A stretch of 36,529 bases of DNA from Synechococcus sp. UW140 (GTDB lineage Bacteria; Cyanobacteriota; Cyanobacteriia; PCC-6307; Cyanobiaceae). A model generated the notes under the pieces. That model was given only the letters and a program-made list of their open reading frames with translations, searched no databases and had not been told where the DNA came from. Shown here in pieces: positions 658-5,295 of the stretch; position 1 is the stretch's first letter; every line of letters begins with the position of its first letter. The DNA lies in NCBI GenBank assembly GCA_945861595.1, contig CAMAVE010000012.1:1-36529 (forward strand), read 5' to 3'. The position numbers and the translations under genes were made by a program.

Positions 658-3252
658 CTAGCCGACGGTCTGGACCATTCGGTTGGCGGCCTGGAGCCGC
701 AGGGCCAATTCCCGCAGGAGCTCGCGGCTGAATTGGGAGGAGTGGCTGAACAGGTGGTCAAAGCTCTCCTGGCTGAACCACAGGCCGGACGCTCCGTGAT
801 CGCCGGCCAGCACATCGGCACTGCGGCGGGCACCGGTAAAGAAGGCCATTTCGCCAACGGTTTCGCCGGCAGTAATCGTGGCGAGCACCCTGGGCATGGC
901 TTGGGCGTCGGCCTGGGCTTGCTTGACGACGAGGCAATCCCCGGTCAGCAAGATCAACACTGATTGGCCGCCTTCTCCTTCTTGATAAATGGCCTTGCCT
1001 GGGGCCCAGTGGCGGGGTTCCCCCACCCGGGCCACTTCGAGCAGGCTTGCGGGTTCCAGGCGCAGGAGCAACGGCACGGCGATGAACTGCTCCAGCAATT
1101 TCTCCTGGGGCCAGGGTTCATCGGCCAGCAGCCCATCCAAAAAAGCCGAGGTTGGCCGACCAAGTCGGCTCTGGCGCTGGAGCTGTCCGGCATGGTCAGG
1201 ATTGAGGCGGCGCTGGACCCAGAGAACCCAGCCGGCGGTATCGGGATCAGGGTCTTGCCACAGCAGTTGAAGGGCGGGCTGGGCGTCCTGGCTGCCCCCA
1301 TCCCCGTTGCCTTGCTCAAGGGCATGGATCTCGCTCGGCGGGCAGCCCAGCGCGAGCAGCCAAGAGCGGTTCGCCTCCAGCTGACGGTTGAGCACCGGAA
1401 GCAACGGTTGCAGGAGCGGTTCCCCGCGGGACGCTTCAACCAGGCCCCGATGGGCAGCCGCTTTGGCTTGGAATTGGGCGTACTCTTCGGCAGTCCGCTC
1501 CTGGTGGTAGGGAGAGGATGGGCTGAACCGGGCCACTGTGGCCTGCCACTGGATGTCATCCAGGCCGCAACTGCGACGAATGGTCTCCAGTTGGCTGGCC
1601 TGCTTGGGCGAGAGTCGGTCTGGATCGAGCTCTACCAGGCCCGCCATCTCCATGAAGTCTGTGATCGCTTCATTGGCGGCTTCTTCGCGCAGGTTGCGTC
1701 GCTGACTTTGGCGCTCGTCGAGTGCTAGCAGTTGGGGCTCGGCCAGGGCCAGTTCGTGCACGATTCCATGGTGATCTTGCTCTTCCAATCCGAGGCTGCT
1801 GCGCAATTCCTCAAGCTGCAACAAGGAGGCTGCCCGTTCCAGTCGACCACTCCGATAGAGGTCTTCCACTACATTTTTGTAGAGTTTGCGGTTGTCCTCA
1901 CGGCGATGGGCTGGCAGCACCTTGGCGAGGGTGAAGACCTCGTCAGGACTGAGTTGGTCGAGGGAGCGGCCATCGAGCCATTCGGGTAGCAAAGTTTCCT
2001 GGTCGGCCAACTGCTTGCTGAGTTGCTTGCGCAGGCTGTTGCTGGTGCTTTCGCGGTTGTAATAGCTCTTGTCTCGGTTCCAGTGGCGATACAACGCCAT
2101 CGCCGAAATCACCAGTACCAGGGAGCGGATTATCTGGCTGAAGCCGGGACCGAGCAAGCCCAGGCTTGGGTCTGCAAACCAGAAGAAGAGATTGATGGCA
2201 ACAAAGCTGGCCAGCAGGCGACTGCGCAGCTGGCCCAGGCCCCGCCGTTCGAGGGTGCTGAACAGCCAGATTGAAATGGCAGCGCCACCGACTAGCAGCA
2301 GGGGAATGCTGAGCAGTCTGGGTAGGCCTGCCAGTTGGAAGGGTGCACCTAGGGGGCTGCCGAGATTGTCGACTAGATCGCTGTCATAGGCCCAACGGCC
2401 GCTGCGTAAGTAGTTCAGATCGCCATCACCGACCAGATCAAGGAGCAGAAAAAATGCCAGTACCAATCCTGGATAGGACCACCAGGCCCAAGCTAGTCCG
2501 CGGGTGCCGCTGAAGTTTTGCCAAAATTGGCGCTCTGAATCAATATCGATACAGGGGGATTGGCACGCGACACAGGCGCTCTGTTCCTTTTGGTTGGTGC
2601 CGATGGTGCGGCACATCGACTGGGTGATCTTGGCGTTGGTGCCGATGTGGGCTGGACCGCCAGCCAGGCTGCGGGGTCCGATCAACACGGTTTGCACCGG
2701 TCCCATTGGACAGACGTAATGGCACCAGGCCTTGCCGGCGTAGGCCCAGCCCACCACGAGGGCGGCCACTACGGTGAGGCTCAGAAAGAGGCCCAGCCCC
2801 ATGGGGCTGCTATTGACCACCAGTAGCCTTAGGCAGAGGCCTGCGATGAACAGGCTCCATTGCAGTTGAAGATGGTGGCGTCCAAGCCATGAGTCCGCCC
2901 GAACTTTCACGACTTCTCGCTTACCACCTTTGCCGAGCTGCGTCCGTTGACGTCCGATCGCTCGGAACAGTTGGGAGATGAAGGCTAAGGGGCAGATGCG
3001 TCGCCAGAGTTCATGGCTGAAGCCGACGATGATCAGGATGCCTAGGGGAACGATGCTGCCCCAGAACACCCGGTTTCCGCTGTGATTATGGAGCTGGCCG
3101 CAGTAGCCTGTGCTCGGGCAAGGATCACGCAAGATCGGCCAGCCATGGCCATCGGGCAGGAAAAGGGAGCCAATTAGCAGAAGCCATCCCAGCAAAAGGA
3201 CCCATCGAACCAGGCGGGCCTGACGCTCAGGCCAGGTGCTAAACAGTTGCAT
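658..3252 (-). CDS. Membrane polyferredoxin (NapH/NosR-like) fused to a cyclic nucleotide-binding domain
   Basis: An 864-residue protein. The N-terminal half (about 1-395) is a membrane region with roughly seven hydrophobic helices. It carries cysteine motifs typical of NapH/NosR-type membrane ferredoxins: RRICP around C87, C177xxxC181P (AWCHYVCPMGP), and C214 followed by C227xxC230xxxC234. The middle (about 400-690) is soluble, helical and charged; two stretches look faintly TerB-like, which is tentative. The last 150 residues form a cyclic-nucleotide-binding fold with a phosphate-binding cassette GEMAFFTGARRSADV at about 800-814. Such parts suggest quinone-linked electron transfer gated by, or sensing, a nucleotide; this is inference. 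An in-frame TTG at 3270 is an alternative start; neither start has a well-spaced ribosome site. It lies 94 bp downstream of coaE on the same strand. Confidence 0.8.
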   Translation of the reverse strand: MQLFSTWPERQARLVRWVLLLGWLLLIGSLFLPDGHGWPILRDPCPSTGYCGQLHNHSGNRVFWGSIVPLGILIIVGFSHELWRRICPLAFISQLFRAIGRQRTQLGKGGKREVVKVRADSWLGRHHLQLQWSLFIAGLCLRLLVVNSSPMGLGLFLSLTVVAALVVGWAYAGKAWCHYVCPMGPVQTVLIGPRSLAGGPAHIGTNAKITQSMCRTIGTNQKEQSACVACQSPCIDIDSERQFWQNFSGTRGLAWAWWSYPGLVLAFFLLLDLVGDGDLNYLRSGRWAYDSDLVDNLGSPLGAPFQLAGLPRLLSIPLLLVGGAAISIWLFSTLERRGLGQLRSRLLASFVAINLFFWFADPSLGLLGPGFSQIIRSLVLVISAMALYRHWNRDKSYYNRESTSNSLRKQLSKQLADQETLLPEWLDGRSLDQLSPDEVFTLAKVLPAHRREDNRKLYKNVVEDLYRSGRLERAASLLQLEELRSSLGLEEQDHHGIVHELALAEPQLLALDERQSQRRNLREEAANEAITDFMEMAGLVELDPDRLSPKQASQLETIRRSCGLDDIQWQATVARFSPSSPYHQERTAEEYAQFQAKAAAHRGLVEASRGEPLLQPLLPVLNRQLEANRSWLLALGCPPSEIHALEQGNGDGGSQDAQPALQLLWQDPDPDTAGWVLWVQRRLNPDHAGQLQRQSRLGRPTSAFLDGLLADEPWPQEKLLEQFIAVPLLLRLEPASLLEVARVGEPRHWAPGKAIYQEGEGGQSVLILLTGDCLVVKQAQADAQAMPRVLATITAGETVGEMAFFTGARRSADVLAGDHGASGLWFSQESFDHLFSHSSQFSRELLRELALRLQAANRMVQTVG

Positions 3253-3346
3253 CCTTACAATTAATCTCAATTCATCTAAGCATGGGCTTTGCCCACCAGG
3301 GTTCCCTGTCGTTACTGGTGATGTCGAAATTTTCCTGGAGACGGCT

Positions 3347-4006
3347 TCAAGCGGTCTTGTCAGAATGCATGGCTAGGGCGATTGCAAGCTGACGCACTAG
3401 TTCAACCGGTGAGCCACTGTTATTGAGTAGGCAATCGGCCAAAGGCCGTTTTTGTTCCAGGGGCCATTGGGCCGCGATGCGGGCCCGAGCTTCAGCTTCG
3501 CTGCAGTGGTCGCGGGCGATCAGGCGTTGCAATTGCTGGTCTTCGTCGCAGTCCACCAGCCAAACTTCGCTGCAAAGCCCGGTGAGGCCCGCCTCAAACA
3601 ACAGGGGCACCATCAGCACCAGCACCGGCGCATCGGCCCCGGCGGCCAGCTCCTGGTCGAAGCGGGCACGCACCAGGGGATGGACCAGCTGCTCCAGCCA
3701 GAGGCGCTCGGCGGGGTCGTTGAAGACGATGCGTCCCAGGGCCGAGCGCTTCACCGCAAGGGGGGCTACGCCGGCGCCTGGGATCGCGCCTGGGTGGTCG
3801 AGCACCGCCGCGCCATAGCGCTCCAGCACGGCCTTGGCCCCTAGCGAGCCCGGTGCCAGGGCTTCCCGGGCGTAGAGATCGGCATCCAGCACGGGGAGCC
3901 CCGCCACGGTGGCCAGCCAGTGGCCGGCGCTGCTTTTGCCCGTGGCAATGCCGCCGGTGAGGCCAATGCGCCGTTGGGAGCCCTGCCAGCGGGGCGAGTC
4001 AGCCAT
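3347..4006 (-). CDS. coaE: Dephospho-CoA kinase
   Basis: A 219-residue protein that phosphorylates the ribose 3'-OH of dephospho-CoA, the last step of coenzyme A synthesis, in the cytoplasm. The P-loop GGIATGKS is at residues 18-25, followed by the VLDADLYARE segment that matches the family's conserved DAD substrate motif, and the VPLLFEAGL segment in the middle. The length fits the family (about 200). The frame continues 27 codons upstream, but the ATG at 4004-4006 puts the P-loop at the usual distance from the N terminus, so I use it. It is divergent from argJ with a 59-bp gap that must hold both promoters. Confidence 0.95.
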   Translation of the reverse strand: MADSPRWQGSQRRIGLTGGIATGKSSAGHWLATVAGLPVLDADLYAREALAPGSLGAKAVLERYGAAVLDHPGAIPGAGVAPLAVKRSALGRIVFNDPAERLWLEQLVHPLVRARFDQELAAGADAPVLVLMVPLLFEAGLTGLCSEVWLVDCDEDQQLQRLIARDHCSEAEARARIAAQWPLEQKRPLADCLLNNSGSPVELVRQLAIALAMHSDKTA

Positions 4007-4065
4007 GGGGGGTCTTCGCTGGTGCTGGGTCTGTCCGATGCTCAGGGTCGCAGCAATGGCGCCCC

Positions 4066-5295
4066 GTGACCCATCCCTGGCACCCAATCGATGGCGGCGT
4101 CACCGCCCCCCAGGGTTTCCTGGCCGCCGGGATCACGGCCGGTCTGAAGGCCTCGGGCAAGCCCGACCTGTCCTTGCTAGTGGCGCCGCCCGGGGCGGTC
4201 TGCGCCGGCACCTTCACCACCAGCGTTGTGCGGGCGGCCTGCGTTGATCTTTGCGCCGAGCGGTTGGTCTCCACTGGCGGCAGGGCCCGGGCCGTGCTCA
4301 CGAACTCCGGCCAGGCCAACGCCTGCACGGGTGAGCGGGGCCTGGTCGACAGCCTCGGGGCCACCGGCGCCGTGGCGGAGCGCTTGGGCCTGGCTGCCGA
4401 GGAGGTGCTGATCTGCTCCACCGGGGTGATCGGGGTGCCAATTCCGATGGACATCTTGCTGGTGGGGCTGGACCCCCTAGTGGCCGCCCTCAGCCCCGAA
4501 GGCGGCGACGCCGCCGCCCGGGCGATCCTCACCACAGACTTGATCGACAAACAACTGGCCCTTGAGGCCACCCTGGGCGGCCGGCGGGTGCGCATCGGCG
4601 GCATGGCCAAGGGGTCGGGAATGATCCACCCCAACATGGCGACGATGCTGGCCATGCTCAGCTGCGACGCGGGTGTGCCGGCGCCGGTGTGGCAGGCGAT
4701 GGTGAAGCGGGCAGTGGATCGCTCCTTCAATGCGATCACGGTGGACGGGGATACCAGCACCAACGACTGTTTCCTGGCCTTTGCAGCCGGCGAGCCCCTG
4801 GGCCCCGAGCACTTTGACGCCCTCGAGGCCGGCCTCACGGCGGTGGCGAGTTGGCTGGGCCGGGCAATCGCCCGCGATGGCGAAGGCGCCACCTGCCTGA
4901 TCGAGGTGCAGGTGGCGGGCACGGCCAGCGACGCCGAGGCGATCACGGTCGCTCGCACCGTCTGTGGCTCGTCCCTGGTGAAATGCGCTGTCCATGGCCG
5001 CGACCCCAACTGGGGTCGGATCCTGGCGGCGGCCGGCCGCTCCGGCGTGGCCTTCGATCCCGGCGCCGTAGCCCTCTGGCTGGGGGAGCACCAACTGATG
5101 GCCGCCGGCCAACCCTTGCCCTTCGATCGATCTGCCGCCTCCGCCTACATCCGGGATCGGGCCGCCGCCGCCTATCTGCAAGACGACACCGTGTTGATTC
5201 GTCTTCACGTCGGCGCAGGTCCCGGCCAGGGCCGCGCCTGGGGCTGTGATCTCTCGGATCAATACATCCGCATCAACGCCGATTACACGACTTAA
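4066..5295 (+). CDS. argJ: Bifunctional ornithine acetyltransferase / N-acetylglutamate synthase
   Basis: A 409-residue protein of the ArgJ family. It transfers the acetyl group from N-acetylornithine to glutamate in the cyclic arginine pathway and may also make N-acetylglutamate from acetyl-CoA. The typical N terminus is IDGGVTAPQGFLAAG. The self-cleavage site is in the KGSGMIHPNMAT segment: cleavage is expected between A192 and T193, leaving T193 as the nucleophile of the beta chain. The TNSGQANACTG motif is at about 79-89 and the C-terminal HGRDPNWGRI motif is present. The start is a GTG that gives the usual N terminus. Whether the bifunctional or only the transferase activity is present cannot be read from the sequence. 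Confidence 0.95.
   Translation: MTHPWHPIDGGVTAPQGFLAAGITAGLKASGKPDLSLLVAPPGAVCAGTFTTSVVRAACVDLCAERLVSTGGRARAVLTNSGQANACTGERGLVDSLGATGAVAERLGLAAEEVLICSTGVIGVPIPMDILLVGLDPLVAALSPEGGDAAARAILTTDLIDKQLALEATLGGRRVRIGGMAKGSGMIHPNMATMLAMLSCDAGVPAPVWQAMVKRAVDRSFNAITVDGDTSTNDCFLAFAAGEPLGPEHFDALEAGLTAVASWLGRAIARDGEGATCLIEVQVAGTASDAEAITVARTVCGSSLVKCAVHGRDPNWGRILAAAGRSGVAFDPGAVALWLGEHQLMAAGQPLPFDRSAASAYIRDRAAAAYLQDDTVLIRLHVGAGPGQGRAWGCDLSDQYIRINADYTT

Follow-up and report, generated by a model that had tools for sequence, protein, structure and literature searches.

The gene and its surroundings

The window, that is the whole stretch of 36,529 nucleotides analysed here (Synechococcus sp. UW140, assembly GCA_945861595.1, contig CAMAVE010000012.1), carries on its reverse strand a gene whose product combines a membrane part of the Fe-S type with an all-helical middle and a C-terminal cyclic nucleotide-binding domain (CNBD). 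An in-frame TTG at 3270 is an alternative start that would add six residues. The features of the locus are as follows:

3347 to 4087, reverse strand: coaE-like gene, upstream of the focal gene on the same strand
658 to 3252, reverse strand: focal coding sequence, 864 amino acids, ATG start, stop codon included, conserved across Cyanobiaceae
3157 to 3216, reverse strand: predicted transmembrane helix 1, residues 13-32 (AlphaFold helices, hydropathy)
3100 to 3120, reverse strand: C45-x5-C51 pair, predicted to be extracytoplasmic, invariant in 54 aligned long members
3013 to 3069, reverse strand: predicted transmembrane helix 2, residues 62-80 (AlphaFold helices, hydropathy)
2989 to 3003, reverse strand: R84-R-I-C87-P88, reduced form of a first CX3CP motif, on the cytoplasmic side
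2707 to 2724, reverse strand: C177-x3-C181-P, intact CX3CP motif (Fer4_5), cytoplasmic side after transmembrane helix 4
2551 to 2613, reverse strand: C214-x12-C227-x2-C230-x3-C234, putative [4Fe-4S] ligands in a cytoplasmic loop, invariant in 54 of 54
2083 to 2493, reverse strand: transmembrane helices 5-8, residues 254-390 (AlphaFold, hydropathy)
1093 to 2082, reverse strand: all-helical middle, residues 391-720, no match to a known family or fold
757 to 1014, reverse strand: CNBD, residues 747-832 (Pfam cNMP_binding, PF00027, 38.4 bits against a cut-off of 27.5)
811 to 855, reverse strand: phosphate-binding cassette GEMAFFTGARRSADV, residues 800-814, canonical G-E...R-S-A

The genome to which the window belongs is 2.18 Mb in size and 86% complete. 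The coaE-like gene ends 94 bases before the ATG of the focal gene, the end of gatB converges downstream of it, and gatB, coaE, argJ and alaS form the neighbourhood in the clade to which the focal protein belongs (the focal clade). No fixed redox partner was found in the neighbourhoods of this clade, for which gene calls are mechanical and several contigs fragmentary. The coaE-like gene is a housekeeping neighbour and no functional partner, and a conserved operon at the window copy was rejected, since housekeeping genes surround it and its chromosomal site is stable. Two other associations were likewise set aside. Flavodiiron genes adjoin the family loci L077 and L078, but L072 has them close to the same block of housekeeping genes as well, which makes synteny the probable reason. 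The clustering of CHASE2-type cyclases (named by eye from sequence), FecR-like proteins and MscS-CNBD channels at several Cyanobiaceae loci was not counted as specific, because MscS-CNBD/cyclase pairs also occur in family-negative genomes (e.g. G014, G051, G055 and G114).

Membrane core and its relation to NapH-type proteins

Only two Pfam models, Fer4_5 (PF12801, residues 156-190, 23.6 bits against a cut-off of 22) and cNMP_binding, score above threshold in the focal protein, and no NCBIfam model reaches its cut-off there. The two matches bear out the proposal of an earlier note on this DNA that a membrane Fe-S-type half is fused to a CNBD. Fer4_5 is matched at E≤0.01 in all 52 members scanned, and some other relatives fall below the cut-off. 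The RRICP, CxxxCP and CxxCxxxC motifs listed in that note are present (at 84-88, in WCHYVCP at 176-182 and in ACVACQSPC at 226-234, respectively), but its inventory of cysteines was incomplete, and a fourth cysteine, C214, and the invariant pair C45/C51 are added here. Nine cysteines (C45, C51, C87, C177, C181, C214, C227, C230 and C234) are thus invariant in 54 of 54 aligned members, and H80, W83-R84-R85, Q211-S212, D236-I237-D238 and E240 are kept together with them.

Eight transmembrane segments are predicted from the AlphaFold helices and the charge distribution. C87, C177/C181 and C214-C234 lie in inner loops that are long or rich in positive charge, and the positive-inside rule predicts a cytoplasmic location for the seven core cysteines and an outer one for C45/C51. 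The AlphaFold model (52 sequences) has a mean pLDDT of 85 and a pTM of 0.60, and is unreliable in the CxxCxxxC loop (residues 201-214 and 226-237), where pLDDT drops below 50.

The gene is naturally split in L080 (7001-9731) and L060 (10001-11182), where the first half is a separate gene of 397 and 393 amino acids, respectively; in L080 the second half (500 amino acids) follows directly and shows no CNBD. The split lies near residue 305-320 in L080, apparently equally so in L060, from Vulcanococcus, and separates the cysteine-bearing part of the membrane region from its second part.

PF12801 has been applied to NapH-like transmembrane electron transfer proteins (PMC8238504), the module of NapH, NosR and RdhC being defined by two CX3CP motifs (PMC5928378), and elsewhere PF12801-type modules act as generic transmembrane electron conduits (PMC5928378, PMC8238504). 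With NapH, NosR and RdhC (PceC) the focal core shares several transmembrane helices, CX3CP at the cytoplasmic face, Fe-S cysteines and the Fer4_5 match. However, all members of the focal family have only one intact CX3CP motif (C177/C181), the other being reduced to xxxCP (C87), and in place of the two C-terminal CxxCxxCxxxCP ferredoxin motifs of NapH and NosR there is a single Cx12Cx2Cx3C set. Eight transmembrane helices and C-terminal sensor modules further set the focal protein apart from this group. The extracytoplasmic FMN-binding domain of NosR and RdhC is also missing: Pfam gives no match to it in the focal protein, and the longest predicted outer loops are shorter than 40 residues. Flavinylation is strikingly underrepresented in cyanobacteria (PMC8238504).

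Profile alignment superposed both CP motifs of the core on those of a NosR/NapH-type protein of the same genome over 119 columns, with a probability of 83 in a comparison against that single sequence; with Escherichia coli NapH, 32 columns were aligned (probability 45). The CcoG/RdxA/FixG model TIGR02745 gives the focal protein 12.7 bits against a cut-off of 316.7. Strict membership of NapH/NosR is not supported: with one intact CX3CP, a non-standard cysteine set and no FMN domain, the core is, as judged from its sequence, a distant and distinct branch and neither a NapH nor a NosR.

A second fusion to a NapH/NosR-type membrane Fe-S half was seen in the window genome itself (L001, 718-2997; G000, contig C1, ~21.5-23.8 kb), in which an AAA+/sigma54-activator domain (PF00158, 34.5 bits) is joined to a NosR/NapH-like half with two Fer4_5 matches. 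Like the focal protein it combines such a half with a regulatory domain, and the cores align; it differs in that the regulatory domain is another one and N-terminal, and in that its cysteine motifs are of the standard NosR type.

C-terminal modules, distribution and partner genes

Residues 391-720 fold as helices in the predicted structure (pLDDT 90), and the invariant positions of this middle part lie in its first ~110 residues. The suggestion that it is TerB-like is not supported by the searches: Pfam gives it no TerB match, PDB sequences nothing noteworthy and Foldseek no match with a better E than 0.58. Weak matches of the middle to ENT, with a best value of 7e-5 and, where the curated cut-off was shown, scores below it, were left unused.

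The CNBD is borne out both by sequence comparison with solved CNBDs and by fold, and Foldseek with the full model gives only CNBD-driven matches, with CNBD-containing folds on top. The cassette of the window protein is canonical, with the arginine and small residues kept as first noticed, and agrees with the pattern expected of cNMP binders, G-E...R-[SAT]-[AS]. Few relatives agree with it (L064, L074, L087, L124 and L132, with L063 borderline) in a count made by regular expression, from which one match, L078, was judged spurious by eye. Within the focal clade, G-E and the arginine are kept in 13 of 20 CNBD-type members, the usual small residues as well only in L064, L074 and the window protein (L063 again borderline), and the cassette is lost in the remaining 7. 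In the wider clade the canonical form is found in L087, L124 and L132, and 33 of 42 relatives (e.g. L081, L088, L101 and L104) have a conserved cassette without the phosphate arginine, LDELEVL.HS..NTI.A, a type that may bind another ligand or none. Second-messenger binding is thus not a general rule; cNMP binding seems plausible in the window protein, given its motif, and is likely for some members only, rather than a common property of the family. The window genome encodes a class III cyclase, and among 200 genomes of the order such cyclases are present in 55 of 59 family-positive against 37 of 141 family-negative genomes, a strong co-occurrence in which genome size and ancestry are confounding factors.

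Across cyanobacteria, relatives were recovered from at least 59 of the 200 genomes searched in the order and from at least 50 of 386 in the phylum; the true counts may be higher, as only a few candidates were scored in each genome. G182, the single further genome sampled from this genus, has no copy, so the family is patchy. In Synechocystis PCC 6714 a copy is carried by plasmid pSYLB (L144). On a quick tree of the core, 23 rows including the window protein form a Cyanobiaceae clade (SH-aLRT 100), and a long branch divides it from the wider clade of cyanobacteria. No paper describing the architecture was found in the open-access literature. The family is real, widespread and undescribed, a variant of NapH-type membrane Fe-S proteins.

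The C-terminus of the family is a site of module exchange, occupied by a CNBD in most members and otherwise by EF-hand pairs, by FHA plus CNBD, by a fused ferredoxin or by nothing. Among 52 members scanned, 41 have a cNMP_binding match at E≤0.01 and 8 are matched by EF-hand models; in individual scans L042, L046, L040 and L095 have EF-hand pairs, and L043, L096, L126 and L124 have an FHA domain ahead of the CNBD. In L140 (9998-11863), a member of 622 amino acids, the core is fused directly to a plant-type [2Fe-2S] ferredoxin domain (Fer2, 47.9 bits). Short members stop after the core, and some of these may be truncated genes. On the core tree the module states change 18 times, against a minimum of 6 for seven labels, some of the labels coming from local HMMs and not from Pfam. 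CNBD, EF-hand and FHA plus CNBD are all input modules, which the fused ferredoxin and the bare end are not, and this argues for a regulated redox core. As a separate case, L045 (the same as L127 693-2975) is a 760-residue member without a detectable CNBD that lies beside a separate CNBD-like ORF of 188 amino acids, possibly by gene fission of the sensor.

In seven loci, the family gene is followed on the same strand by a gene whose product combines FHA, FAD-binding, NAD-binding and [2Fe-2S] domains. This reductase occurs in 14 of the 386 phylum genomes, spanning 13 genera, and the family is found in all 14, against 50 of 386 overall (hypergeometric p ~6e-14, a figure inflated by shared ancestry), although G444 has just a fragment of the family gene, interrupted by an in-frame stop. 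The two genes adjoin in 9 of the 14. Beyond cyanobacteria, plasmid pAt3 of Agrobacterium fabrum encodes a 1060-residue homologue with FHA, followed by an FAD/NAD/Fer2 oxidoreductase. On a plasmid of Leptolyngbya boryana (L145, 3857-8973) a Ser/Thr kinase-WD40 gene, the core gene and the FHA-FAD/NAD-Fer2 gene stand in a row, which suggests signalling from phosphorylation through FHA to the redox pair. The pairing in these three settings is the strongest functional evidence available, and makes a [2Fe-2S] centre the probable electron partner of the core. In the window genome this FHA-FAD-Fd reductase is missing, and ordinary ferredoxins and a distant reductase match are all that there is, so the donor proposed below is deduced from relatives of another clade.

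A second recurrent neighbour is nrtABCD, which immediately precedes the family gene in the same orientation in L085, L091, L115, L121 and L127 and is divergent in L092. The relatives so linked span five families, and have the cassette without arginine or, in L127, no CNBD.

Possible function and significance

We lean towards the focal protein being a signal-gated membrane electron carrier, for which we infer the clusters, direction, acceptor, ligand and gating. C214, C227, C230 and C234 would hold one [4Fe-4S] cluster, and C87, C177 and C181, as in NapH-type CX3CP motifs, would form a further redox site at the face of the membrane. Electrons would be exchanged at the cytoplasmic face with a [2Fe-2S] ferredoxin, which would be soluble in the window genome and part of a dedicated NAD(P)H-FAD-[2Fe-2S] reductase in others. 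The four-cysteine cluster and the CP-motif site would connect this ferredoxin, in either direction, with an acceptor in the membrane, for which the quinone pool is the likeliest candidate; in some members the outer C45/C51 pair may accept the electrons instead. The C-terminal module, here a CNBD that would bind cAMP or cGMP, would shift the conformation of the helical linker and so switch transfer on or off. The coupling of electron transfer to a signal, as originally envisaged, gains indirect support from the exchange of CNBD, EF-hand and FHA modules on one core and from the genomic tie to the reductase; second-messenger binding as a rule is not supported, given the 33 arginine-less cassettes mentioned above. 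It is possible, although we hold this more tentatively, that cyanobacteria and some Alphaproteobacteria share a family of second-messenger-gated membrane oxidoreductases, with one Fe-S core, sensors of cAMP, Ca2+ or phospho-proteins and a dedicated NAD(P)H-[2Fe-2S] reductase.

Rather unlikely, in our estimation, is a redox sensor without enzymatic activity, in which the Fe-S core would sense the state of quinone or ferredoxin, the C-terminal part would report it, and the CNBD would be a degenerate module for protein-protein contact or dimerisation. The strong conservation of the non-canonical cassette (DELEVL.HS..NTI) outside the focal clade suggests a role other than cNMP binding and would agree with such a sensor, as would the position of some copies 3' of nrtABCD on the same strand and the focal clade being without a fixed redox partner; however, none of CNBD, EF-hand and FHA is an output module, all three serving for input or binding, and a dedicated NAD(P)H reductase and a ferredoxin fusion better fit an enzyme that carries electrons.

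It is less probable still that the protein supplies reductant across the membrane, passing electrons through the outer C45/C51 pair to an extracytoplasmic thiol, copper or haem-maturation substrate, by analogy with DsbD/CcdA and CcoG. The pair is invariant in the aligned long members and predicted to lie outside, but a structural disulfide would explain this too, no extracytoplasmic partner recurs nearby, and L138 lacks the pair, as does the Agrobacterium homologue, in which the other seven cysteines and a reductase partner are retained. A component of nitrate assimilation, acting as membrane electron donor or regulator coupled to nitrate uptake, is the least probable of all, for despite the nrtABCD linkage across five families and the NtrB and NtrC/D models above cut-off for L091, most copies, including that of the window, have no nitrate gene nearby.

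The signal-gated electron carrier that we favour has a parallel in the NADPH oxidases of the NOX5/RBOH type, in which a membrane redox core is fed from FAD/NAD(P)H and gated by EF-hands (PMC3591440). The likeness is one of logic, in the FAD/NAD(P)H feed (with Fer2 in some members) and the EF-hand gating; the focal core is of the Fe-S type, its reductase is mostly a separate gene, and the ferric reductase haem domain (PF01794) has no match in the focal protein or the scanned members. If the proposal is true, the family would be an Fe-S counterpart of these oxidases, in which signals directly set electron flow between ferredoxin or NAD(P)H and the membrane. In a review of cyanobacterial second messengers, the cAMP targets are CRP-type regulators, of which few functions are known, and SbtB (PMC10117731); the family would add a direct post-translational link from cAMP, Ca2+ and protein phosphorylation to membrane electron flow. 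With one core and varied sensors, it is a comparative system for the gating of membrane redox enzymes. Its members are now annotated only as 'cyclic nucleotide-binding domain-containing protein' or '4Fe-4S binding protein', and these uncurated proteins would, if the proposal holds, become approachable by experiment. The MscS-CNBD channels of the same genomes, sometimes encoded close by, are also membrane proteins with a C-terminal CNBD, there with a canonical cassette, and differ from the family in having an ion channel core.
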